64,000 bases of DNA from Anaerolineaceae bacterium oral taxon 439. GTDB lineage: Bacteria; Chloroflexota; Anaerolineae; Anaerolineales; Anaerolineaceae. The stretch spans positions 186,001-250,000 of the forward strand of contig CP017039.1 in the NCBI GenBank assembly GCA_001717545.1, in the 5' to 3' direction. Made by a program: the position numbers and the translations under genes. The first letter of the stretch is position 1. Every line of letters begins with the position of its first letter. This document shows positions 43,884-54,790 of the stretch, one piece after another. The notes under the pieces are model-generated. The model did not search any database. It was not told the origin of the DNA and saw only the letters and a program-made list of their open reading frames with translations.

Positions 43884-45356
43884 TTATCCCAATTGGGTAG
43901 CCAGCGGATAAAGTTTAAGAAATTGACGAAATCGTTCTTCATACATGGAGGTTAATTTATTGTCAGGTGTGTACCTTTCGGCAGGACAGCTGTCCGTCAG
44001 GTATTCTATGAAGCCTGCGTAATTCTTTTCTTTCCCTAATCCGATTTTACCTGAAACGGATAATGCGATCGCCGGTAAAAAGTCTGCATTGGAAAATACA
44101 ATTAATTCCTGGTTAAGAATATTGGAGAGAATTTTCATCCAGCACATCTCTTTTGTTCCACCGCCGACAACGGTCATTTTCTGAACGGATTTATTTATCG
44201 TTTCTAATCCTTGACGAATCGAAAATGCGACGCCCTCTAACGCTGCCTGAGCTAAATCAGTCTTTGAAGTCGATGCAGAGATACCGGCGAAGAGGCCGCG
44301 AACAGAATTGTTCATGACCGGGAAACGTTCTCCAATAATATATGGAAGGAAAAGCAAACCGTTGCTGCCCGGGGTTCCGTCAAGCAGCAAACGATGAACC
44401 TCATCATAATTAATCGCTCGCTCCTGTGAAGATAAAATTTTACTGATCCATTGATGTACATTGCCTGCGTTTAGAAATGGAACGACGTTTATATAAGTCT
44501 GCGAAGGGATCGCGGCGAGATTGAAAACAGAAGGGTTATCCAGCGGTTTTTCAGACGCGGTTGCGATCCACCCTGTCGTACCGATATTGATATTAAAATC
44601 ATTCGCCGCTATAACCGCGCCTGCCAACGTTGCTGATCCTGCGTCGCCTGAACCAGAAAAGACAAGCGTTCCAGACGAATATCCCGTTTCGATCGAAGCG
44701 CTTTCGATAACTTCGCCCACAATTTCATCAGAAGACGTTACTTTGGGAAGCAAGCTGGAAGAAAAGCCGAATCGATTTATCCATTCAACTTGCCATTCTT
44801 TCGAAAGAATGTCCATTAGCCCAGTTGTGGATCCGGTCGTAATATCGGTTACGCAGTTCCCGGTCAGTTTCCGAATAATAAAGTCTTTTGAACTGAATAA
44901 AACGCAGTCAGTTTGATTAAATACATCAGGCGACATGTCCTTAAGCCATAAAAGCTTCGCAAAGGGCGTAGCTCCATCCATCCTGTTTCCAGTAATTTTT
45001 CGTATTGTTTCTTTTCCAAGGGCGGCGCTGATCTTTTCTGCCTCGCGATTCGCTCTCCCATCAGAATACAAAATTGCGTTCGACGATGGATCGCCATTCT
45101 TCTGAATAGGTATAAGATTTTGCATCTGACCGCTCATAATGATAGCTTCAATTTTATGTTGCGGTTTGGTTCTTACGAACAGATTCGAGATTTCACAAAA
45201 AGCTGTGTACCAGCTGTTCGGGTCCTGCTCACCTTTTTCGTTATGAAAAAAAGTATCGATTCTTCGGCTTTCTGCACGGATAATAGTATTATCCATCCCT
45301 ATCAGTACACCTTTAATAGCGGTAGTGCCAATATCAAAAGTAGCGATACAGTTCAT
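43884..45356 (-). CDS. FGGY-family sugar kinase (xylulokinase-like)
   Basis: A 490-residue carbohydrate kinase. The N-terminal phosphate loop is TFDIGTTAIKGVLIG. The C-terminal half has GTTGWIATASEKPL, the conserved FLPYIIGERFPVMN and ALEGVAFSIRQGLETI. It resembles xylulokinases, but the FGGY family contains many sugars. It is the last gene of the SorC operon, starting directly after the TrpA-like gene ends. It should phosphorylate the imported sugar. Confidence 0.88.
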   Translation of the reverse strand: MNCIATFDIGTTAIKGVLIGMDNTIIRAESRRIDTFFHNEKGEQDPNSWYTAFCEISNLFVRTKPQHKIEAIIMSGQMQNLIPIQKNGDPSSNAILYSDGRANREAEKISAALGKETIRKITGNRMDGATPFAKLLWLKDMSPDVFNQTDCVLFSSKDFIIRKLTGNCVTDITTGSTTGLMDILSKEWQVEWINRFGFSSSLLPKVTSSDEIVGEVIESASIETGYSSGTLVFSGSGDAGSATLAGAVIAANDFNINIGTTGWIATASEKPLDNPSVFNLAAIPSQTYINVVPFLNAGNVHQWISKILSSQERAINYDEVHRLLLDGTPGSNGLLFLPYIIGERFPVMNNSVRGLFAGISASTSKTDLAQAALEGVAFSIRQGLETINKSVQKMTVVGGGTKEMCWMKILSNILNQELIVFSNADFLPAIALSVSGKIGLGKEKNYAGFIEYLTDSCPAERYTPDNKLTSMYEERFRQFLKLYPLATQLG

Positions 45357-46124
45357 TTATTCATCCTTGCCTGGAAGATTTGTCTTAATTTCGCGAATAA
45401 AAGCATACAGCTCGTTCGCCGACAGATTCAGTTTTCTGACCATAGCTGTGCCGACAATGACACCGTCAAAGCCGGCAGCAATTAAATTCGAGGCTTTTTC
45501 GGGCGTGTTGATTCCGAATCCGGCGAATATGTGGCAGCCACCGTTTTTCTTGATCAGGTCCAATAATGGCTTGTAGTCTTCTTCAACGCCGTTCATCCCG
45601 GTTGGCCCTGAATAGAGCTGAAAATAGATCGGATTAAAATGCTCAATTTGCTCCTGAACGGATTCAATTGGCATCTTCGGATTTATGAAGCCGATTACAT
45701 CTATTGGATAGGGATCGATTGATTTTTGAAATTGGATTCGTTCGGAATAGGTCAACTCTGGTAACACGAAGCCATCGGCAAATCTATTTTTTGCAATTTC
45801 CAGATAAAAATCATTTTTCAACAGATCTTCTTTGTAACCCATAATCCATATTGGGCAGTCTAACGTTTCTCTGATTTTGGCCCAGTTGGAAAGATCATTT
45901 CTATTCATCTGCGTTTGCAGGTGGGCTTGTTGGATGATATCACCGTCTAAATAAGGGTGGGACGAAGGATATCCGATTTCAAAAATATCCAGCCCTGCTT
46001 TGACGCAATTAGCCCCGACATCGAGAAATTGGCCAAAAGTCGGGTATCCCGATACCAGGTAGCCTGCAAGAAGCGATTTACTGCGATTTAATAAATTCCT
46101 ATTTCGAATCGATCGAAGCTCCAT
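45357..46124 (-). CDS. TrpA-like TIM-barrel protein in a sugar operon
   Basis: A 255-residue homologue of the tryptophan synthase alpha chain. The catalytic region FEIGYPSSHPYLDGDIIQQA keeps the Glu and Asp that correspond to E. coli Glu49 and Asp60. Later segments YFQLYSGPTGMNGVEEDY and the phosphate-binding FAGFGINTPEKAS with FDGVIVGTAMVRKL match the family. No trpB or other trp gene is nearby. It overlaps the permease gene by one base (TAATG) and abuts the kinase gene. TrpA cleaves indole-3-glycerol phosphate to indole and glyceraldehyde-3-phosphate by a retro-aldol step. In this operon it might cleave a phosphorylated sugar instead (inference). Confidence 0.82.
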   Translation of the reverse strand: MELRSIRNRNLLNRSKSLLAGYLVSGYPTFGQFLDVGANCVKAGLDIFEIGYPSSHPYLDGDIIQQAHLQTQMNRNDLSNWAKIRETLDCPIWIMGYKEDLLKNDFYLEIAKNRFADGFVLPELTYSERIQFQKSIDPYPIDVIGFINPKMPIESVQEQIEHFNPIYFQLYSGPTGMNGVEEDYKPLLDLIKKNGGCHIFAGFGINTPEKASNLIAAGFDGVIVGTAMVRKLNLSANELYAFIREIKTNLPGKDE

Positions 46125-47077
46125 TATTCGGTGCTTCCTTTCCCTAATTTTTGCGCGATTACCGCTAAAATAATTATTGCTCCCGTTAATATATCCTGAA
46201 TATAAGTTGGAACCTGGAGTATGGTTAATCCGTTTGCTAAGATTCCTAAAATTGCGGCGCCGATAAACGTTCCCCATACGTTCGGAACGCTTTCTCTGAA
46301 AACCGTGCTTCCGAGATATACAGCGGCGTAGGAAGAAAGGAAGAAACTATCGCCGCCCGTCGGGTGAGCAGAGCCCAGGCGGCTTGCCATGAGGACGCCG
46401 GTCACTGCGGAAAGCCCACCGCAAAGCGCGAATGCAATTCTTTTATTTCTATTTACGTTAATACCAGAGACTCGCGAGGCTGTTTCATTACCGCCGATTG
46501 CGTAGAGTTTACGTCCAAAAGCGGTATTTCGCATGATAAACCAAAAGATCACGGAAAAAAGCAGCATGATCATTGTTAGGTATGGAATTTGCGTCAGACT
46601 TTTCGAGCCGATAAAGGTAAAAGATTTAGGAATGTTTTGAAAAACTGTTGATCCATCCGTTAGCCAATACGTGAAACCTGCAAGGATAGTGCTCATTCCT
46701 AAGGTTGTAATAAACGAAAGCACGTTGAATTTTGTAACAATCCAACCGTTGACCCATCCAAGAATCAGACAAGCGACGACAGGCACCAGGAAACAAAGCC
46801 AGACTGGAAAACCCGCTACAGCCAGTAACGCTCCGATTACGCCGCCTAAACTCGCTAACGCGCCAATCGATAAATCGAATTCGCCGACGCACATGATCAG
46901 CGTTGCGCCAATTGCTATAATAACTTGAAGTGAGATTTGGCGGCTGATATTGATAAGATTCCTGAAAGTAAAGAAAGCGTCGAGGCGAAGAATACTGAAA
47001 ATTATTATCACCAGAAGGCCCGCAATAATCGTCCCGTAGGTTTGAAGAATATCTGAAGCTGTTGTTTTATTTTTCAT
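46124..47077 (-). CDS. Ribose-type sugar ABC permease (RbsC-like)
   Basis: A 317-residue membrane permease with about nine hydrophobic segments. FDLSIGALASLGGVIGALLA and NPVFxGINVNRNKRIAF-type loop (RVSGINVNRNKRIAFALCGG) are typical of the RbsC/XylH class. It overlaps the ATPase gene by eleven bases and the TrpA-like gene by one. Base composition is AT-rich compared with the rest of the window. Confidence 0.9.
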   Translation of the reverse strand: MKNKTTASDILQTYGTIIAGLLVIIIFSILRLDAFFTFRNLINISRQISLQVIIAIGATLIMCVGEFDLSIGALASLGGVIGALLAVAGFPVWLCFLVPVVACLILGWVNGWIVTKFNVLSFITTLGMSTILAGFTYWLTDGSTVFQNIPKSFTFIGSKSLTQIPYLTMIMLLFSVIFWFIMRNTAFGRKLYAIGGNETASRVSGINVNRNKRIAFALCGGLSAVTGVLMASRLGSAHPTGGDSFFLSSYAAVYLGSTVFRESVPNVWGTFIGAAILGILANGLTILQVPTYIQDILTGAIIILAVIAQKLGKGSTE

Positions 47078-48578
47078 CTTTGCGCCTTTCTTCTTTCCGC
47101 TGATAACAGATTGCCAAAATTTGTCTTGATGTCAGGTTTTCATTCTTCAGACAGGCTTGCGTTTCCCCGTTTACGATAACGACGATATTGTCTGCGATAT
47201 TCAGCATTTCGTCTATATCCGAGGAAACGACGACAATAGCGGCGCCTTGGCCCGCCAGATTGCGAAGAAGGCGATGAATTTCAGATCGTGTTTTGATATC
47301 GACTGCCTGCGTTGGCTCGTCGCATAAAAGAACCTTTGGTTCGGACATTAACGCTTTTGCGAAAACGACCTTTTGTTGATTTCCGCCAGATAATTTGGCG
47401 ACTTGCTGCGCTGGGCCGGTCGTTTTAATCGATAAGGATCTAATTTTTTCTTCAGCGTGGTTCGTTTCATTTTTTTCGTCGACAATCCCGAATCTGGCAT
47501 TCTGATCGATGGTTGACAGAACGATATTTTGTTTTACAGATAGGCTTGTGATTAATGCCTTTCCGCGCCTGTCCTCACTGATAAGAACCAAACCGTTTTT
47601 TAGTGATTGCGCCGGAGAAGGTTTTGGGTATCCTTTTTGGCCTATGGTTATTTTTCCAAAGGCTTTTTCTCGTAAACCGTAGATAGTCTCGAGTGTTTCT
47701 GTTCTGCCGCTTCCTCCCAGACCGTAGATTCCGAGAATTTCGCCTTTCCTGACAGAAAAACTGACGCCTTTTACGATTTTGTCTGCGCTCTTCAGATGAT
47801 CAACAGATAGAAATGTTTCCCCGAAGACTCTATCAGTTCCTTTGGCTTCGCTTACCCAATTGCCTGTCATCAGTGAGATAATTTTTTCCAGGTTGGTATG
47901 GTTTGTTGTTTCGGTTGAAATCAGCTCTCCATTTTTTAAGACTGTAATTCTGTCCGTTAATCTAAATATCTCGTCCATTCGATGCGAAACGTATAAAATG
48001 GAAACGCCGCTTTCCTTTAATTTTTGTATGATCCTAAAGAGAATTGCAGCCTCTTTTTCGGTCAGCGAAGCTGTAGGCTCGTCTAAAATCAACAATTGAC
48101 ATTCAGTCATCATTGCACGAATTATTTCGAGCAGTGTTTTTTGAGGCGGGCTTAATAATCTGGCTGGCGCTCTGAGATTCAGGCTGATTCCTATGCGTTT
48201 TGCGGTCTTGTCGACCCTTTGCTGCATTTTCTCCCAATCCAGGAGGATTCCGCCAAATCGCGTTTCATACGGAAGCCCGAGATAGGCGTTTTCATATCCG
48301 CTAAGAAAGGGAATAAGGTTTCTGTCCTGATGTATAACGTTGATTCCAAGTCTGCGACTCTGCCATGGGGAATGAATTCTGATTTCCTTTCCATTCCACA
48401 GGATTTGGCCAGAGTCAAACCCATAAACTCCAGTCAATATCTTAATTAAAGTTGATTTTCCAGCGCCGTTTTCACCGACAAGGCCATGAATCTCTCCTGG
48501 CATCATTTCAAAATCTACATTTCGCAGAGCATATATCCCGTTGAATTGTTTGTTGATTTTCGCTGTTTTCAATAACAT
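47067..48578 (-). CDS. Ribose-type sugar ABC ATPase (RbsA-like)
   Basis: A 503-residue protein with two ABC domains. The first has Walker A GENGAGKSTLIKIL and Walker B LLILDEPTASLT. The second has the altered Walker A GLGGSGRTETLE, signature LSGGNQQKVVFAKAL and LLCDEPTQAVDI. It resembles RbsA/XylG/MglA. AAGGA lies seven bases before the ATG. Confidence 0.92.
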   Translation of the reverse strand: MLLKTAKINKQFNGIYALRNVDFEMMPGEIHGLVGENGAGKSTLIKILTGVYGFDSGQILWNGKEIRIHSPWQSRRLGINVIHQDRNLIPFLSGYENAYLGLPYETRFGGILLDWEKMQQRVDKTAKRIGISLNLRAPARLLSPPQKTLLEIIRAMMTECQLLILDEPTASLTEKEAAILFRIIQKLKESGVSILYVSHRMDEIFRLTDRITVLKNGELISTETTNHTNLEKIISLMTGNWVSEAKGTDRVFGETFLSVDHLKSADKIVKGVSFSVRKGEILGIYGLGGSGRTETLETIYGLREKAFGKITIGQKGYPKPSPAQSLKNGLVLISEDRRGKALITSLSVKQNIVLSTIDQNARFGIVDEKNETNHAEEKIRSLSIKTTGPAQQVAKLSGGNQQKVVFAKALMSEPKVLLCDEPTQAVDIKTRSEIHRLLRNLAGQGAAIVVVSSDIDEMLNIADNIVVIVNGETQACLKNENLTSRQILAICYQRKEERRKDEK

Positions 48579-48611: not shown

Positions 48612-49559
48612 CTATTCTTTCAGATAATCTGCAACGTTTTTAATCGTGATCAGCTTCGCGGGCGCGTAAATTTCGCCTGGCTCGATCGTTTCATCGTCGA
48701 ACATTTGAATAATTGACGCTGAGATGAGTTCCGCCATGCCTTCGAAATCCTGGGCTACGGTTGCTTTAAGATCTGTTCCGTCAGCGATCATTTGCAGCGC
48801 TTGACTATTCCCGTCGACGCCGGTAATTACAATTTCATCCCGACCAGCGTCCAAGCATGCCTGAGCCGCTCCAATCGCGGGCTCGTCCCAGGCAGCCCAG
48901 ATAGCAGAGATCGATCCTTTTTCAGAATTCGCAAGCAGCAGGTTCTCAACGATTTTTCGTGCGTTTTCAATCGGATTCGGAACTTCAACGTGCTGCTCTG
49001 TAATAAGTTCGATTTCCCCGTTATCTTTAAGCAGGTCGTCCATAGCTTCGCAGCGCTTGACCACGCCTGGATGAGGGCGGTGTGTCAGGGTGATAATCTT
49101 GCCCTCTCCGCTTATTAAATCGTTGACCAAATATTCTCCAATTAATTTTCCCATTGCGTAATTATCGCTGGTTGCGTTGACGGCCATGCCTTCGATAAAA
49201 CCGCTGTCGACGCCAAAGACTGGAATATTTGCTTCGAATGCGGATTCGAGTTGGGCCTCGACCTGAGAGGGATCGACGCTGATGATAACGATCGCGTCGA
49301 CCATAGCCGAGACAGTGTCTTCAATACGGCTCGCAAATTGCGCCATATCGCCCTTTGTATCAACGATCGTTACGATGACGCCAGCGTCTTCTAAACGGTC
49401 CGATAAATAATTGGCCATCTGGTTTGTTGTTACTGAACTCATGTATGGCGTCAGGATCGTAACTTTTTTCCCTTTAGGGCTTCCCATGACTGTGAATACA
49501 TTTGCCAAAAGCAATACAAACGCTAATCCGTATGCGGCTAAAAAATTATTCTTTTTCAT
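48612..49559 (-). CDS. Periplasmic-type sugar-binding protein (RbsB-like)
   Basis: A 315-residue exported binding protein of the peripla-BP-4 family. The signal sequence (KNNFLAAYGLAFVLLLANVF) lacks a lipobox. Mature part: TILTPYMSSVTTNQMANYL, VDAIVIISVDPSQVEAQLES, FGVDSGFIEGMAVNATSDNY and TGVDGNSQALQMIADGTDLK. AAGGAG precedes the ATG. It is the second gene of the SorC operon. The sugar cannot be assigned from sequence. Confidence 0.9.
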   Translation of the reverse strand: MKKNNFLAAYGLAFVLLLANVFTVMGSPKGKKVTILTPYMSSVTTNQMANYLSDRLEDAGVIVTIVDTKGDMAQFASRIEDTVSAMVDAIVIISVDPSQVEAQLESAFEANIPVFGVDSGFIEGMAVNATSDNYAMGKLIGEYLVNDLISGEGKIITLTHRPHPGVVKRCEAMDDLLKDNGEIELITEQHVEVPNPIENARKIVENLLLANSEKGSISAIWAAWDEPAIGAAQACLDAGRDEIVITGVDGNSQALQMIADGTDLKATVAQDFEGMAELISASIIQMFDDETIEPGEIYAPAKLITIKNVADYLKE

Positions 49560-49584: not shown

Positions 49585-50523
49585 TTAATTTAATAGACGT
49601 GCTGCTGTATCCGTATCCGTGATCAGAACGTCTAAATATCCGCTGCTAAGCGATGCTTTAATGGCCTCTGTTTTAGCTATGCCGACACCAATTCCTATTT
49701 TCTTGGCGCTGGAGAGGGTTTGTAATGTTTGCCCGATACTTCGTTTATCTAAGATCGTTTCAATAATTTTTCCATCTTTATCAAGGAAGGAATTGCAAAT
49801 TGCCGCGATAACTCCGCGATTCAACAATTCTTTTCTGTCTTTTTCCGTCCAACGCCCGGCGATTGCAGGCGTTGATGATACGTTGACGTTTCCGATTCCG
49901 AGAAGCGCAATATCGCAGTTTCTTCCGAGTTTAAGGATCGATCTAATTGTTGGTTCGCGCAATAGCGATTCCTTGATCTCGGCGCTTTGAACGATGACAG
50001 GCGCGTTCAGCGCATAATTAATCCCGCCGGTTTTTTCTGCAAATCGTTGGGCGATCGCGTTTGCATGGATTTTAGCGTTCTCTAATCCGAGCCCTCCCAT
50101 TAAAGGAACAATCTCAAGGTTCTTTTTTTGAGATGGGGAAACGTAATCGATTACGGTCGAGATCGTGTTCCCGCTCATGACCCCAATTTTCATCCCGTCG
50201 TTTATCAGGGTTTCGATATGCTCGGCTGCCTGCATACAGAATTTTTCAAAAGTCTGATCGCTCGGATAACCGCTTAGATTGACGACGATCGCGTCCTTTA
50301 AGCTGAACTTTTTAATTAATCCTTGCTCAAGGTTCAATTCAGTTTCGAAAGCGTCATCAATTGTTATTGTTACAATCCCTTTTTCTCTCGCGGCCGAAAT
50401 TATCCGACAAACCTGTGGCCTCGAAATCCCCAGCTTCTCTGAGATTTCTTTTTGGCTAATGTTTGCCAGGTAGTACATCCTGCAAATTTTGAGCATCAGC
50501 TGACGGTTATCCAACATTGTCAT
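49585..50523 (-). CDS. SorC-family transcriptional regulator
   Basis: A 312-residue regulator. The N-terminal helix-turn-helix is YLANISQKEISEKLGISRPQ. The long C-terminal sugar-binding domain (about 55-310) includes KIGVMSGNTISTVIDYV and LLGIGNVNVSSTPAIAGRWT, typical of SorC/DeoR-like sugar sensors. The ATG at 50523 is chosen because AAAGG lies eight bases upstream; a GTG at 50532 is also in frame. As first gene of the AT-rich operon it probably controls its own transcription in response to the phosphorylated sugar. Confidence 0.88.
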   Translation of the reverse strand: MTMLDNRQLMLKICRMYYLANISQKEISEKLGISRPQVCRIISAAREKGIVTITIDDAFETELNLEQGLIKKFSLKDAIVVNLSGYPSDQTFEKFCMQAAEHIETLINDGMKIGVMSGNTISTVIDYVSPSQKKNLEIVPLMGGLGLENAKIHANAIAQRFAEKTGGINYALNAPVIVQSAEIKESLLREPTIRSILKLGRNCDIALLGIGNVNVSSTPAIAGRWTEKDRKELLNRGVIAAICNSFLDKDGKIIETILDKRSIGQTLQTLSSAKKIGIGVGIAKTEAIKASLSSGYLDVLITDTDTAARLLN

Positions 50524-50539
50524 ATGCGACACCTTTAGA

Positions 50540-50567: not shown

Positions 50568-50974
50568 CATTCCATCTTACACTTATGCCTCATCCTTGAC
50601 AAGTGATTTTTGTAATGAAAAAGGGAGCGAAGTGTAATATATCCGACTAAGATTATAACAATCTCCCGTCTGCTCCAGCTACTTTTATATCTCGCATTGT
50701 CCGGCAGGCAATACCTTATGTGGCAGGGGGATCATGTCAATAACAAGGGGAAATGTCCCAAAAAAGGGGAACATCAGCGGGAAAAAAGGCTATCGGCAGA
50801 TTAAGAAATCCTGAAGCGGCGATGGGCTTGATCCTGGGCCAAGATAAAAGAAGAATAGCGCCAGGGGGTGTTTCATAGGCGGAGCAGGAAAAACAGATTC
50901 AGGCGAAGACGATCATCTGGCGGAAGCGAAGATCTGGCCGTCAAAAGCCCTGATCACAAGGCAATCGCTTATGA
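50568..50974. other. Intergenic stretch without a supported gene
   Basis: About 400 bases between the SorC operon promoter and the first insertion-sequence fragment. All six frames are broken and I see no RNA gene or strong hairpin. Composition is mixed, as in decayed mobile-element flanks. Nothing else can be supported. Confidence 0.4.
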
Positions 50975-51212
50975 TATAGCGGTTTACCGTCCGGACGGTC
51001 ATGCCTGATTTCACCGCAACACGCTATTTATTACCGCCATGATCCATCAATACTTTAATAACCTGATATTTTTGTTCCTCGTTCATTCGTAGTGATATCT
51101 TTCTCATGTCAGGGAATCCTCCTGCCGTCCATCATGACAAACTGACGTTTATCATGGTAGACGGCAGGACAAATTCCAAAAAACTTCTATGAGACAATAT
51201 CACAGACTTTTC
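50975..51212 (-). mobile_element. ISNCY-like IS fragment, 5' part only (copy 1)
   Basis: The minus strand holds the left end of the element, a hairpin (51120-51169), and the first ~48 codons of a transposase (MRKISLRMNEEQKYQVIKVL, then VRTVNRYI) with an in-frame TAG after GGNK. Homology to copy 2 then stops near 50975. Its left end directly joins the right end of copy 2, so the copies are in head-to-tail tandem. Confidence 0.82.
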
Positions 51213-51216
51213 GCGC

Positions 51217-52188
51217 ATGAATCTCAAAAAAATAACGCGATCTTGAACTGGCGATGAGTCATCTCTTGAATGCGGAGGAAAGAAGCTTGCTTCCAAGGAT
51301 AAGTCTTCGGAGGGATATAACGTTTTTTCGGCACAGGAGGAACAATGACATCAAATTCAGGAGAGGATACAGCATGTTTGCGGATCTCACTCAACGCGAA
51401 GGATTTGGTCGAAAACGTGATAATAGCCGTCGAGTGTTTCCTACCAATCAAAGAAGGCGCCGACGATGGCGCGGGTGGCATTATCGACAGCAAGATGAAG
51501 GACGGACTTGCGTTCCCCGAACCAGAGATGAAAAGAGCCGTCCATTCGGATTTCTTCGCCGAAGTATTTACAGCGCTGCTGACGCGGATGAGCGTCCTCA
51601 AGAGCGATCTGGCGACGGACAACCGTCTCAACTTCGTTTTCAGAGATGGAAGGGGTATCCGTCAGCAATTTAGCTTTTGTGAGCTTTTTTCGAGTAGCCC
51701 TGCGAATATGCGGAGACAGGATATCATTCGCCCAGAGAAGGCGATAGACAGTCGCGTAGGAAACGTCAATGTTCTCGTACTCAGATAGTAAGTCTTTGTA
51801 ATGGGCGAAATTGAATCCAGCATATTTTTCTCGATACAAAGATACAATCAAATCGCTTACTTCCTTGGAGAGAGAATTAGCAGGAGGGCGGTGTCTGTTC
51901 CCATGAACAAACGCCGCTTTTCCTTTACGCTTGTAGGCAGCGATATAGCGGCTTACCGTCCGGACGGCCACACCCAGTTTCAACGCAACACGCTGTTTAT
52001 TATCGCCATGATCCATCGATTCTTTAATAACCTGATATCTCTGTTCCTCGTTCATTCGTAGTGATACCTTTCTCATGTCAGGGAATTGTCCTGCCGCCCA
52101 TCATAGCAAACTGACGTTTATCATGACAGACGACAGGACAATTTCCAAAAAACTTCTATGAGACAATATCACAGACTTTTCACACAGC
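51217..52188 (-). mobile_element. ISNCY-like insertion sequence, internally deleted (copy 2)
   Basis: Most of one element on the minus strand, with its left end near 52188 (GCTGTGTGAAAAGTC). A long imperfect inverted repeat at 52088-52139, of the kind that hides the start of transposase genes from outside transcription, separates that end from the gene. The right end meets copy 1 at about 51213. The gene is inactivated; see the pseudogene entry. Left-end sequence also occurs at 51180-51212 and 63201-63240. Confidence 0.85.
51224..52076 (-). pseudogene. Decayed ISNCY-like transposase
   Basis: The frame from 52076 gives 211 residues: helix-turn-helix domain (MDHGDNKQRVALKLGVAVRT), then the start of the DDE catalytic core, EDAHPRQQRCKYFGEEIRMD followed by GSFHLWFGERKSVLHLAVDN. 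It is broken by TAG at 51441-51443 inside FFDW*ETLDGYYHVFDQIL, whose homology continues past the stop. After about 25 more residues the core is lost by a deletion, and the C-terminal tail reappears as RYIPPKTYPWKQASFLRIQE up to TGA at 51224. Family members are about 400-450 residues, so roughly a third is missing. Confidence 0.85.
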
Positions 52189-52406: not shown

Positions 52407-53264
52407 ATGAACTCAACGAAGCCCCTTCCACCTCTCAACGTTCCCGCCCTGCTGGCCCGCTATCGACTCCAGCCAAGCAAAGGACTGGGTCAGAACTTCC
52501 TAACCGACGACGGCGTCCTGGCCGAAATCGTCCAAGCCGCGGGCGTAGATAAAACGAGTGTGGTTTTAGAAATCGGGCCGGGACTGGGATCTTTAACGCG
52601 GCGCCTTGCCGCGGAGGCTTCGCAGGTTATCGCGGTCGAATTGGATCGGAAGATGATTCCCGTACTGAACGAGACGCTGGCGCCGTTTTCTAACGTCGCG
52701 ATCATCCAGTCGGACATTCTTGCGTACGATCCGTGCGACGCTTTCGCCGGTGAATCCTACTGTGTTGTCGCCAATATTCCGTACTATATCACCTCTGCGG
52801 TCATCCGCCATCTTCTTGAGCTCAGAACGCGGCCAGATCGAATTTCGCTGACGATTCAGAAAGAAGTCGCGGAACGTATCTGCGCCGAGCCCGGGGATTT
52901 CAGCCTTCTATCGCTGAGCGTTCGGATTTACGGCGAGCCGCGCTGCATGATGACGATCGGGAAAGAGGCGTTTTATCCGGTTCCGAAAATCGATTCCGCG
53001 CTCGTCCGAATCGATTTATACGACGAACCGCTTATTCCGAGGAACAATGCGGACGCATTTTTCAAGCTGATCAAAGCCGGTTTTGGACAGAAGCGAAAAA
53101 CGCTGCGCAACGCGCTGACCTCTGGACTGGCGCTCGATAAGACGGCGATCGAAAACGCGCTTTCCGAAGCGGAAATCGATCCCAAACGGCGCGCCGAAAC
53201 GTTGACAATAGACGAATGGAAACAATTGCTGTCGGTCCTGAACCGACGGAGCGGAGGACAATAA
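52407..53264 (+). CDS. rsmA: 16S rRNA dimethyladenosine transferase
   Basis: A 285-residue methyltransferase that dimethylates two adjacent adenosines near the 3' end of 16S rRNA. Motifs: GLGQNFLTDDGVLAEIV, the SAM site VLEIGPGLGSLTRRLA and the catalytic VANIPYYITSAVI. Start at ATG 52407 from conservation; the longer frame runs back through the tRNA. Its stop overlaps the xylB start (TAATG). Confidence 0.95.
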   Translation: MNSTKPLPPLNVPALLARYRLQPSKGLGQNFLTDDGVLAEIVQAAGVDKTSVVLEIGPGLGSLTRRLAAEASQVIAVELDRKMIPVLNETLAPFSNVAIIQSDILAYDPCDAFAGESYCVVANIPYYITSAVIRHLLELRTRPDRISLTIQKEVAERICAEPGDFSLLSLSVRIYGEPRCMMTIGKEAFYPVPKIDSALVRIDLYDEPLIPRNNADAFFKLIKAGFGQKRKTLRNALTSGLALDKTAIENALSEAEIDPKRRAETLTIDEWKQLLSVLNRRSGGQ

Positions 53265-54790
53265 TGAGCTGCCTGTTAGGAATCGATCTTGGAACGTCAG
53301 GGCTGAAAGCGATCCTGGCGAACGATTCGGGACGTATTCTCGCGAACGCCTATCGTGCCTATTCATTCGATTCGCCGTCCCCAGGCTACGCCGAGCAGGA
53401 TCCCGAAGTCTGGTGGCGCGCCTGTCGCGAAGCGCTTTCGTCCGTCCTGACCGAAAGCGCGGTCGATCCCGCCGAAATCCGGGGGCTTAGCTTTTCAGGT
53501 CAGATGCATGGGCTGGTCGCGCTGGATGAGCATGGAAACGTCGTTCGCCCTGCAATTCTGCACTGCGACGCGCGGTCGAGCGCTGAAATCGACGAAATCC
53601 GCGCCGCCTTCAGCGAATCCGAACGCAGTGAATTTTTTATGAACCCGATTTTCACCGGTTTCCTGATGGTTTCGCTGCTTTGGGTCCGGAAGAATGAGCC
53701 GGAAAACTACGCCCGGATCCGAAAAGTATGCCTGCCGAAAGATCACCTGCGTTATAAGCTGACCGGGATCGTTTCGTCCGATTATTCCGACGCCTCAGCG
53801 ACGCTCGCGTTCGATATCCCGAACCGGAGCTGGTCCAGCGCAATTCTCGATCGTCTGAGTCTTCCGCGCGAACTGTTCCCGGACTGCGACGAGACGATCG
53901 CGCCGGTCGCGCCGGTTTCCCGGACCGCAGCACTGGAAACGGGGCTGTCGGAAACGACGGTCGTCGTTGCCGGCGGCGGGGATCAGGTCATGCAGTCGAT
54001 CGGCAACGGACTGATTTCAGACGGAGACGGAAGCGTCAATATCGGATCGAGCGGTCAGGTCAGCTTCCAGCTTGGGAAACCGTTCCTGAACCCGGCGCTG
54101 AACTCGAATATGTTCTGCGCGTATGATCGCGACCGCTGGATCATGTTCGGCGCGACGATGAGCGCGGGATTGTCGCTGAAATGGTGGAACCGGATCATTC
54201 AGCAGTCCAGCTATGAAGAGTTGAACCATGAAATCGGGAAGATCCAGCCTGGAAGCGGCGGCCTGCTGTTTTTCCCGTACCTGAACGGCGAACGCACGCC
54301 GCACGTTAACCCGAATATCAGCGGAACGCTCATGGGGTTCAATCACACGACGAGCCGATTCGCGATCGCGCGCGCCGTAATGGAAGGCGTCGCGTTTTCT
54401 CTGAAGGACTGCCTGGATATCTGCATGGGCGCGGGTTTCCTTCCCAACCGACTGGTCGCGTCAGGCGGCGGCGCGCGCAGCCCGCAATGGCTCCAGATTC
54501 AGGCGGATATTCTGGGATTGCCGCTGGTCGTTTCGCGATCCGAGGAGCAGGCAGGCATGGGAGCGGTTATCGCCGCGGGTACCGGAAGCGGGGTCTTTCA
54601 TGATATTCGCGAGGCGATCGGGGTTTTCGTCCGGTACCAGGACCAAACGATCGAACCGGCCCCGGACGCACGGCGAATTTACACGGAGCTGCATGAAATT
54701 TACAAAGACGCTTATCGGCGGATGGCTCCCGCGCTGGAAGCGTTAACCGTCTTTGGCCGGCGGCAGGAGGCGCGCGCCTTTGTCAACTAA
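53264..54790 (+). CDS. xylB: Xylulokinase
   Basis: A 508-residue FGGY kinase that phosphorylates D-xylulose. Signatures: LLGIDLGTSGLKAILAND, FSGQMHGLVALDEHGNVVRP typical of XylB, GGGDQVMQSIGNGLI, and YLNGERTPHVNPNISGTLMG. GGAGG lies six bases before the ATG. It is coupled to rsmA by a one-base overlap, an unusual pairing of an rRNA modification gene with sugar catabolism. Compared with the kinase at 43.9 kb it matches XylB more closely. Confidence 0.92.
   Translation: MSCLLGIDLGTSGLKAILANDSGRILANAYRAYSFDSPSPGYAEQDPEVWWRACREALSSVLTESAVDPAEIRGLSFSGQMHGLVALDEHGNVVRPAILHCDARSSAEIDEIRAAFSESERSEFFMNPIFTGFLMVSLLWVRKNEPENYARIRKVCLPKDHLRYKLTGIVSSDYSDASATLAFDIPNRSWSSAILDRLSLPRELFPDCDETIAPVAPVSRTAALETGLSETTVVVAGGGDQVMQSIGNGLISDGDGSVNIGSSGQVSFQLGKPFLNPALNSNMFCAYDRDRWIMFGATMSAGLSLKWWNRIIQQSSYEELNHEIGKIQPGSGGLLFFPYLNGERTPHVNPNISGTLMGFNHTTSRFAIARAVMEGVAFSLKDCLDICMGAGFLPNRLVASGGGARSPQWLQIQADILGLPLVVSRSEEQAGMGAVIAAGTGSGVFHDIREAIGVFVRYQDQTIEPAPDARRIYTELHEIYKDAYRRMAPALEALTVFGRRQEARAFVN

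Follow-up and report, generated by a model that had tools for sequence, protein, structure and literature searches.

A tryptophan synthase alpha-like gene in a conserved ABC transporter-FGGY kinase cassette of Chloroflexota and Bacillota: a candidate route from indole-3-glycerol

Several described systems come close to the locus reported here. Tryptophan synthase alpha (TrpA) has the same fold, the same catalytic acids E49 and D60 and the same phosphate site. The Lsr system for AI-2, composed of LsrR-LsrACDB-LsrK-LsrF, likewise joins in one operon a SorC-type regulator, a ribose-type ABC transporter, an FGGY kinase and a TIM-barrel enzyme that cleaves a carbon-carbon bond. Plants possess stand-alone indole-3-glycerol-phosphate (IGP) lyases, maize BX1 and its relatives, which likewise descend from TrpA and should set indole free in the absence of TrpB; among them, BX1 serves secondary metabolism and draws on internal IGP. 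Finally, the tryptophan synthases of Chlamydia and Bifidobacterium are reported to salvage free indole (PMC6635532 and PMC11085991). A search of a literature library with few subscription papers and no bioRxiv preprints found no report of indole-glycerol uptake, of a kinase acting on it, or of operons joining TrpA to an FGGY kinase.

In this work, we analyzed a TrpA-like gene carried by a 64-kb stretch of bacterial DNA (the whole stretch is called the window below), together with its counterparts in other genomes. Our central proposal, which we regard as probable, is that the gene belongs to a cassette that would import indole-3-glycerol, phosphorylate it to IGP and cleave the product by means of a stand-alone IGP lyase. 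The parts are of known kinds; their combination and the pathway they would form appear to be new.

The TrpA-like gene is the fifth in a minus-strand run of six, which leads from a SorC-type regulator through an RbsB-type substrate-binding protein (SBP), an ABC protein and a permease to an FGGY kinase (Table 1). It runs from ATG to stop at 45357-46124 and encodes 255 aa, exactly where the preliminary description had placed a TrpA homologue; it reads on the minus strand, which that description had left unstated. The translational linkage to permease and kinase claimed there is borne out by the junctions: the stop codon of the permease gene shares bases with the start codon of the TrpA-like gene (TAATG), and the kinase start follows the TrpA-like stop without a gap (TAA-ATG). 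Among RNA families, only tRNAs were found in the window, and a scan of the cassette at an E value of 0.1 gave no match, T-box included. An IS-like open reading frame (ORF) occupies 51441-52076 on the minus strand, and a broken repeat of its start, matched by eye, lies upstream of the SorC gene (50960-51107, same strand). A second FGGY kinase, of the xylulokinase type and with its GQMH motif kept, is found outside the cassette (53216-54790, plus strand), behind an ORF that we named KsgA-like by eye.

Table 1. Position of the cassette genes in the window and of a second TrpA-like type in related genomes
Feature	Location	Strand	Length and domains
SorC/DeoR-type regulator with sugar-binding domain	49585..50532	-	315 aa; PF04198 (E 5e-63) and N-terminal HTH matches
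RbsB-type substrate-binding protein (SBP)	48612..49559	-	315 aa; PF13407
Double ABC ATP-binding protein	47067..48578	-	503 aa; PF00005, two stretches
Ribose-type ABC permease	46124..47077	-	317 aa; PF02653; overlaps TrpA-like start codon
TrpA-like protein, proposed stand-alone IGP lyase	45357..46124	-	255 aa; PF00290
FGGY-family kinase, proposed indole-3-glycerol kinase	43884..45356	-	490 aa; PF00370/PF02782
Second TrpA-like type	L031 2739-3458	-	238-239 aa
Second TrpA-like type	L032 8395-9111	-	238-239 aa
Second TrpA-like type	L033 7444-8160	+	238-239 aa

The window protein matches the Pfam family Trp_syntA (PF00290) with an E value of 5e-30 and 104.7 bits, against a curated cut-off of 27. 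It scores just below the cut-off of the NCBIfam trpA model TIGR00262 (99.5 versus 102.35 bits) and below that of NF009621 (101.8 versus 234 bits), and it shares about 25-32% of its residues with the more distant members of the TrpA family in related genomes. BX1 is among its best matches both in sequence and in structure. Its AlphaFold2 model (pLDDT 91.8) fits Salmonella TrpA best (Z 33, rmsd 1.8-1.9, 246-248 residues) and BX1 with a Z of 32; these matches identify the TrpA fold alone and do not by themselves speak to function. In a phylogenetic tree, the 12 TrpA-like proteins collected from cassettes form one group (support 98/97), separate from 21 ordinary TrpA proteins including that of E. 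coli. Within this group, identity to the window protein goes down to 37-47%, and no branch is longer than that of the window protein (1.28, versus 1.19 for G789). The family alignment (A3) and the structure model cover ten of the 12 proteins, that is, all except G1158 and G1256.

Three genomes from the genus of the window carry a second TrpA-like type, which adjoins genes for BtpA and an iron-type alcohol dehydrogenase (named from Pfam in L031, by eye in L032 and L033); in L033 it also lies near a PNP-type phosphorylase, a PfkB kinase, an isochorismatase-type protein and ABC genes. It keeps E49, has E at position 60, and has lost T183, G184 and F212. Considered as a possible member of the cassette family, it was rejected, since it falls on a different branch of the tree and lacks these last three residues.

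Nine residues of the IGP site are invariant in all 12 TrpA-like proteins: E49, D60, Y102, Y175, T183, G184, F212, G213 and G234, numbered after E. coli TrpA. Another, S235, is replaced by T throughout the group. The preliminary description was right in that the window protein keeps both catalytic acids (E49 and D60) and the glycines of the phosphate site. Among positions that we take to be TrpB-facing, F54 has become S in 12/12, N104 is lost in 12/12, and D56 is lost in nine and kept in three (it is H in the window protein), while both N104 and D56 are found in all members of a comparison set of 20 ordinary TrpA proteins, 12 of which were seen adjoining trpB. Loop 6 also differs between the two groups; maize TrpA had its stand-alone activity raised when the BX1 loop 6 was swapped in (PMC9100643).

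D60 is invariant in the TrpA-like set although the neighbouring residues of loop 2 have drifted. PMC12930369 reports that D60 interacts with the indole nitrogen, and gives an IGP cluster model whose residues partly coincide with the invariant positions. While E. coli TrpA has Asp at position 60, 11 of the 20 ordinary proteins compared have Glu, so that D60 is a weaker marker than it might seem. At position 177, which we assigned to the IGP pocket by mapping from V172 of BX1 in PMC12930369, Q is present in 12/12 TrpA-like proteins versus V in 20/20 ordinary ones, and position 153 is F in every TrpA-like protein.

The window genome consists of one contig of 2.95 Mb, 99.89% complete. Searched as a whole, it yielded no TrpB over the cut-off (best score 36.3 bits versus 392.45, for a threonine ammonia-lyase that lies above the cut-off of its own family), which confirms the earlier view of a TrpA homologue without TrpB. 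Nor did we find in it an IGP synthase (TrpC), a second PF00290 protein, or a TrpD over the cut-off, the sole TrpD match being a thymidine-phosphorylase-like ORF of the window, named by eye. The searches for these tryptophan families were positive in 14/14 control genomes each, with TrpB over the cut-off in 13. The preliminary description would have given up a new role had this been the only trpA of a tryptophan prototroph; it is indeed the only PF00290 gene, in a genome where TrpB, TrpC and TrpD were not found, and we conclude that the protein does not serve there as the alpha subunit of a functional tryptophan synthase.

The order transporter-TrpA-kinase, which the preliminary description had suggested looking for elsewhere, recurs in two phyla. 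Comparing gene order by one uniform tblastn, we recognized 13 distinct cassettes in Chloroflexota and Bacillota (Firmicutes), 12 of them with a TrpA-like gene. The full order SorC-SBP-ABC-permease-TrpA-like-kinase is present in ten (G000, which is the window genome, G003, G766, G767, G768, G769, G789, G994, G1042 and G1158), the kinase being truncated at a contig end in G003, G768 and G994. As for the others, the G1256 cassette starts at the binding protein because its contig starts there, G010 has no intact SorC gene beside the cassette, and G013 has neither SorC nor TrpA-like gene in it. Named members are a Flexilinea sp. and an Anaerolineaceae MAG among Chloroflexota, and Sinanaerobacter, a Clostridiaceae, a Peptococcaceae and another Firmicutes MAG among Bacillota; the remaining genomes are placed only by the taxonomic group in which they were searched, and several of the cassette genomes are incomplete MAGs.

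Close TrpA-like relatives were detected in two of 40 related genomes besides the window's own (G003 and G010), and again in these two only when 400 genomes of the order were searched; seven further genomes matched there at E values of 1e-25 to 1e-30, G013 among them, whose matches were ordinary TrpA. An alignment of three members, used as query on the genome collection, matched six contigs, two of them from G003 and G010, and a single-sequence pattern search of the collection found no relative. With the binding protein as bait, matches were obtained in 5 of 393 genomes of Sinanaerobacter's order and in 6 of 349 genomes of the family of one of these (five being already known); among 396 genomes of the window's class, the window genome alone was retrieved, and no other genome of the same genus was among the entries listed.

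In four of the 13 cassettes, trp genes adjoin the cassette, in at least two separate arrangements. This is far above our rough estimate of chance, by which a given gene would adjoin a given cassette about once in a thousand cases. In G010 and G013, which belong to the window's genus, trpB-trpA lies directly upstream of the cassette on the same strand, and a T-box leader precedes the whole (100.5 bits in G010; 83.3 bits in G013, E 1e-17, below the gathering score of 93). Both T-boxes display UGG, the tryptophan codon, at the presumed specifier position; UGG is also read there in the T-boxes that lead a separate trpBA in G1158 and a solitary trpB in G789. Between trpA and the SBP gene, a scan of the coding strand detected no terminator-like site in G010 or G013, and a small inverted repeat was seen by eye in the G013 gap. 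In G010, the gap of 201 bases (L023 14354-14554) contains two broken pieces of a SorC C-terminus, recovered with three SorC queries at E values of 3e-8 to 3e-12. T-box and trpBA thus appear to have taken the place of the regulator in this genome.

The G013 kinase starts a few tens of bases after the permease stop, which leaves no space for a TrpA-like gene, and the only two PF00290 matches of that genome (89% complete, 5% contamination) are TrpA proteins adjoining trpB. G013, which is a MAG, carries two trpBA pairs (L025 and L026; TrpB 90% and TrpA 81% identical) and a third trpB, for which contamination is possible. In G1256, trpB is found downstream of the kinase on the same contig, up to the contig end; between the two genes, trpB is preceded by a T-box match that is weak (38.1 bits versus 93), so that a single transcript is not implied. 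In G994 a contig end interrupts the kinase; its second piece opens another contig and is followed by trpB-trpA, the pieces having been compared and not joined. No T-box was found at the trpBA of G994 and G1042. The other nine cassettes adjoin no trp gene within the sequence available, some being cut by contig ends.

Genome-wide searches for IGP synthase and TrpB covered 12 cassette genomes, 11 of them with the TrpA-like gene (all but G1256). IGP synthase is present only in G013 and G766, and is therefore missing in 10/11 TrpA-like carriers. Half of these ten have TrpB over the cut-off (G010, G789, G994, G1042 and G1158); G767, G768 and G769 show no more than a TrpB-like protein that passes the TIGR01415 cut-off, and the window genome and G003 (80% complete) have neither. 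In G010, G994, G1042 and G1158, both TrpB and TrpA are present and IGP synthase was not detected. A separate trpBA, of the sort that the preliminary description wished to see checked, exists in Sinanaerobacter (G766), as part of a trpD-C-F-B-A run apart from the cassette, with TrpE- and TrpG-like ORFs, named by eye, ahead of it. PF00290 proteins were searched genome-wide in the window genome and seven others, a set outside which G789, G994, G1042, G1158 and G1256 fall.

The window kinase passes the Pfam cut-offs for both halves of the FGGY family (FGGY_N 156.6 bits versus 28.8, FGGY_C 78.7 versus 27), and matches 12 NCBIfam models, reaching the cut-off of none; xylulokinase is the nearest (304.9 versus 380.25). 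All 11 cassette kinases with letters at these positions keep the GDAG motif and have GQMQ, versus GQMH in the xylulokinase-type kinase of the window; GQMH is taken here as the hallmark of xylulokinase (XylB). These counts leave out G1256 and the fragment of G768, and include the partial kinases of G003 and G994. FGGY kinases phosphorylate the terminal hydroxyl of short polyols and ketoses, such as glycerol and xylulose, and the glycerol tail of indole-3-glycerol offers such a hydroxyl. On the transporter side, the window's binding protein shares 57-75% identity, over the aligned parts, with its counterparts in the other 12 cassettes, including those beside trpBA, which argues for a single common ligand; the binding-protein alignment (A2) holds six sequences. 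The model of the window's binding protein resembles many ribose-type binding proteins (Z about 30), a fold that does not settle the ligand.

The sequences show how the cassette is composed and conserved, where T-boxes stand, which genes are missing and which residues are kept; what is imported, what the kinase makes, whether and in which direction the product is cleaved, how indole is used and all the activities we infer from these features. The RbsB-type transporter would take up indole-3-glycerol, and the FGGY kinase would phosphorylate its terminal hydroxyl to give IGP. The TrpA-like protein, free of control by TrpB, would then split IGP into indole and glyceraldehyde-3-phosphate by the retro-aldol mechanism of TrpA, with E49 and D60 as catalytic acids. 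Where TrpB, or perhaps a TrpB-like protein, is present, indole could be turned into tryptophan and the upper pathway bypassed. Where trpBA has entered the operon, TrpA could perform the cleavage, so the TrpA-like gene would be dispensable and may be missing. For the TrpB-less organism of the window, the gain would be glyceraldehyde-3-phosphate, and indole a waste product or a signal. Since TrpB is absent from the window genome and from G003, the route through this enzyme cannot reach tryptophan in either. The end use in the window organism is the point of which we are least sure, given the missing TrpB, the long branch of the protein, and an equilibrium of TrpA that favours IGP unless indole is removed (PMC9100643).

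At a broader scale, we are inclined to believe, with somewhat more caution, that extracellular indole-3-glycerol is a nutrient for anaerobes devoid of the upper pathway: an ABC transporter of the sugar type would import it, a dedicated FGGY kinase would phosphorylate it, and either the lyase or TrpBA would convert it to indole, tryptophan and glyceraldehyde-3-phosphate. In at least one lineage, gene replacement would have switched control of the cassette from a regulator of the sugar-phosphate type to a tRNA-Trp T-box.

The preliminary description had proposed a sequence of import, phosphorylation and cleavage to glyceraldehyde-3-phosphate, acting on a phosphorylated pentose or hexose. The scheme and the release of glyceraldehyde-3-phosphate fit our data; a plain sugar as substrate fits them less. 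An ordinary sugar cassette, cleaving a ketose phosphate to glyceraldehyde-3-phosphate and a small sugar, would explain the sugar-family membership of transporter, kinase and regulator, the lack of TrpB in the window genome and the presence of Q for V at pocket position 177. We nevertheless find it improbable, because trpB or trpBA adjoins the cassette in four genomes, preceded in two by a T-box with a tryptophan specifier, and because the nine IGP-site residues never vary. Moreover, a Schiff-base aldolase needs an invariant lysine, and the ten aligned TrpA-like members have none (a metal-type aldolase is a separate matter). The trp neighbours and T-boxes, together with the invariant residues, make IGP a likelier kinase product than a pentose or hexose phosphate, and indole the more likely second fragment. 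A role in AI-2 processing, as in an Lsr-like operon, was set aside: the tryptophan links do not fit it, and phospho-DPD is not known to offer a matching retro-aldol step.

The imported compound could instead be an indole-glycerol carrying a modification such as ring hydroxylation, or a different N-H heterocycle with a glycerol side chain, in which case the ring released would not be indole. Q177 and F153, common to all TrpA-like proteins, do hint at a modified indole, and the absence of TrpB from the window genome and G003 would agree with it. This is nonetheless unlikely to our mind, as TrpB or a TrpB-like protein in 8/10 carriers without IGP synthase, together with the adjoining trpBA, points to indole destined for tryptophan, and the G013 cassette holds an ordinary trpBA and no TrpA-like gene. 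One might also dismiss the trpBA neighbours as chance companions or hitch-hikers of horizontal transfer, and the TrpA-like protein as a drifting, non-catalytic relict: no trp gene adjoins nine of the cassettes, that of G013 manages without the TrpA-like gene, and the branch of the window protein is long. We give very little credence to this view, since the association takes a different form in each of two phyla (in the window's genus trpBA precedes the cassette, in Bacillota trpB follows it) and catalytic residues have stayed invariant in proteins that are only 37-47% identical to that of the window.

If indole-3-glycerol is indeed the substrate, tryptophan metabolism would gain a new entry point, an indole-glycerol kinase; bacteria would have a stand-alone IGP lyase of their own, and ribose-type transporters a new class of substrate. 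The cassette would also account for the genomes of this study in which TrpB is present and IGP synthase undetected. Tryptophan prototrophy may be miscalled, since the likeness of these proteins to tryptophan synthase alpha and xylulokinase is close enough for them to be annotated as such. The exchange of indole-glycerol among the microbes of anaerobic communities then becomes a testable question.

Compared with the described systems, the window protein departs from TrpA in forming a separate group in the tree, in having no TrpB in its genome, in having lost residues taken to face TrpB and in residing in a transporter-kinase operon. Unlike BX1, which acts on IGP made within the plant cell, it would receive IGP derived from an imported and then phosphorylated precursor. 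The cassette differs from Lsr in that its cleaving enzyme belongs to the TrpA family, its permease is encoded by one gene, and several relatives show links to tryptophan. Like the salvage of indole by Chlamydia and Bifidobacterium, it would make tryptophan accessible from a scavenged precursor, to which it adds a proposed transporter and kinase for a glycerol-linked form of that precursor.
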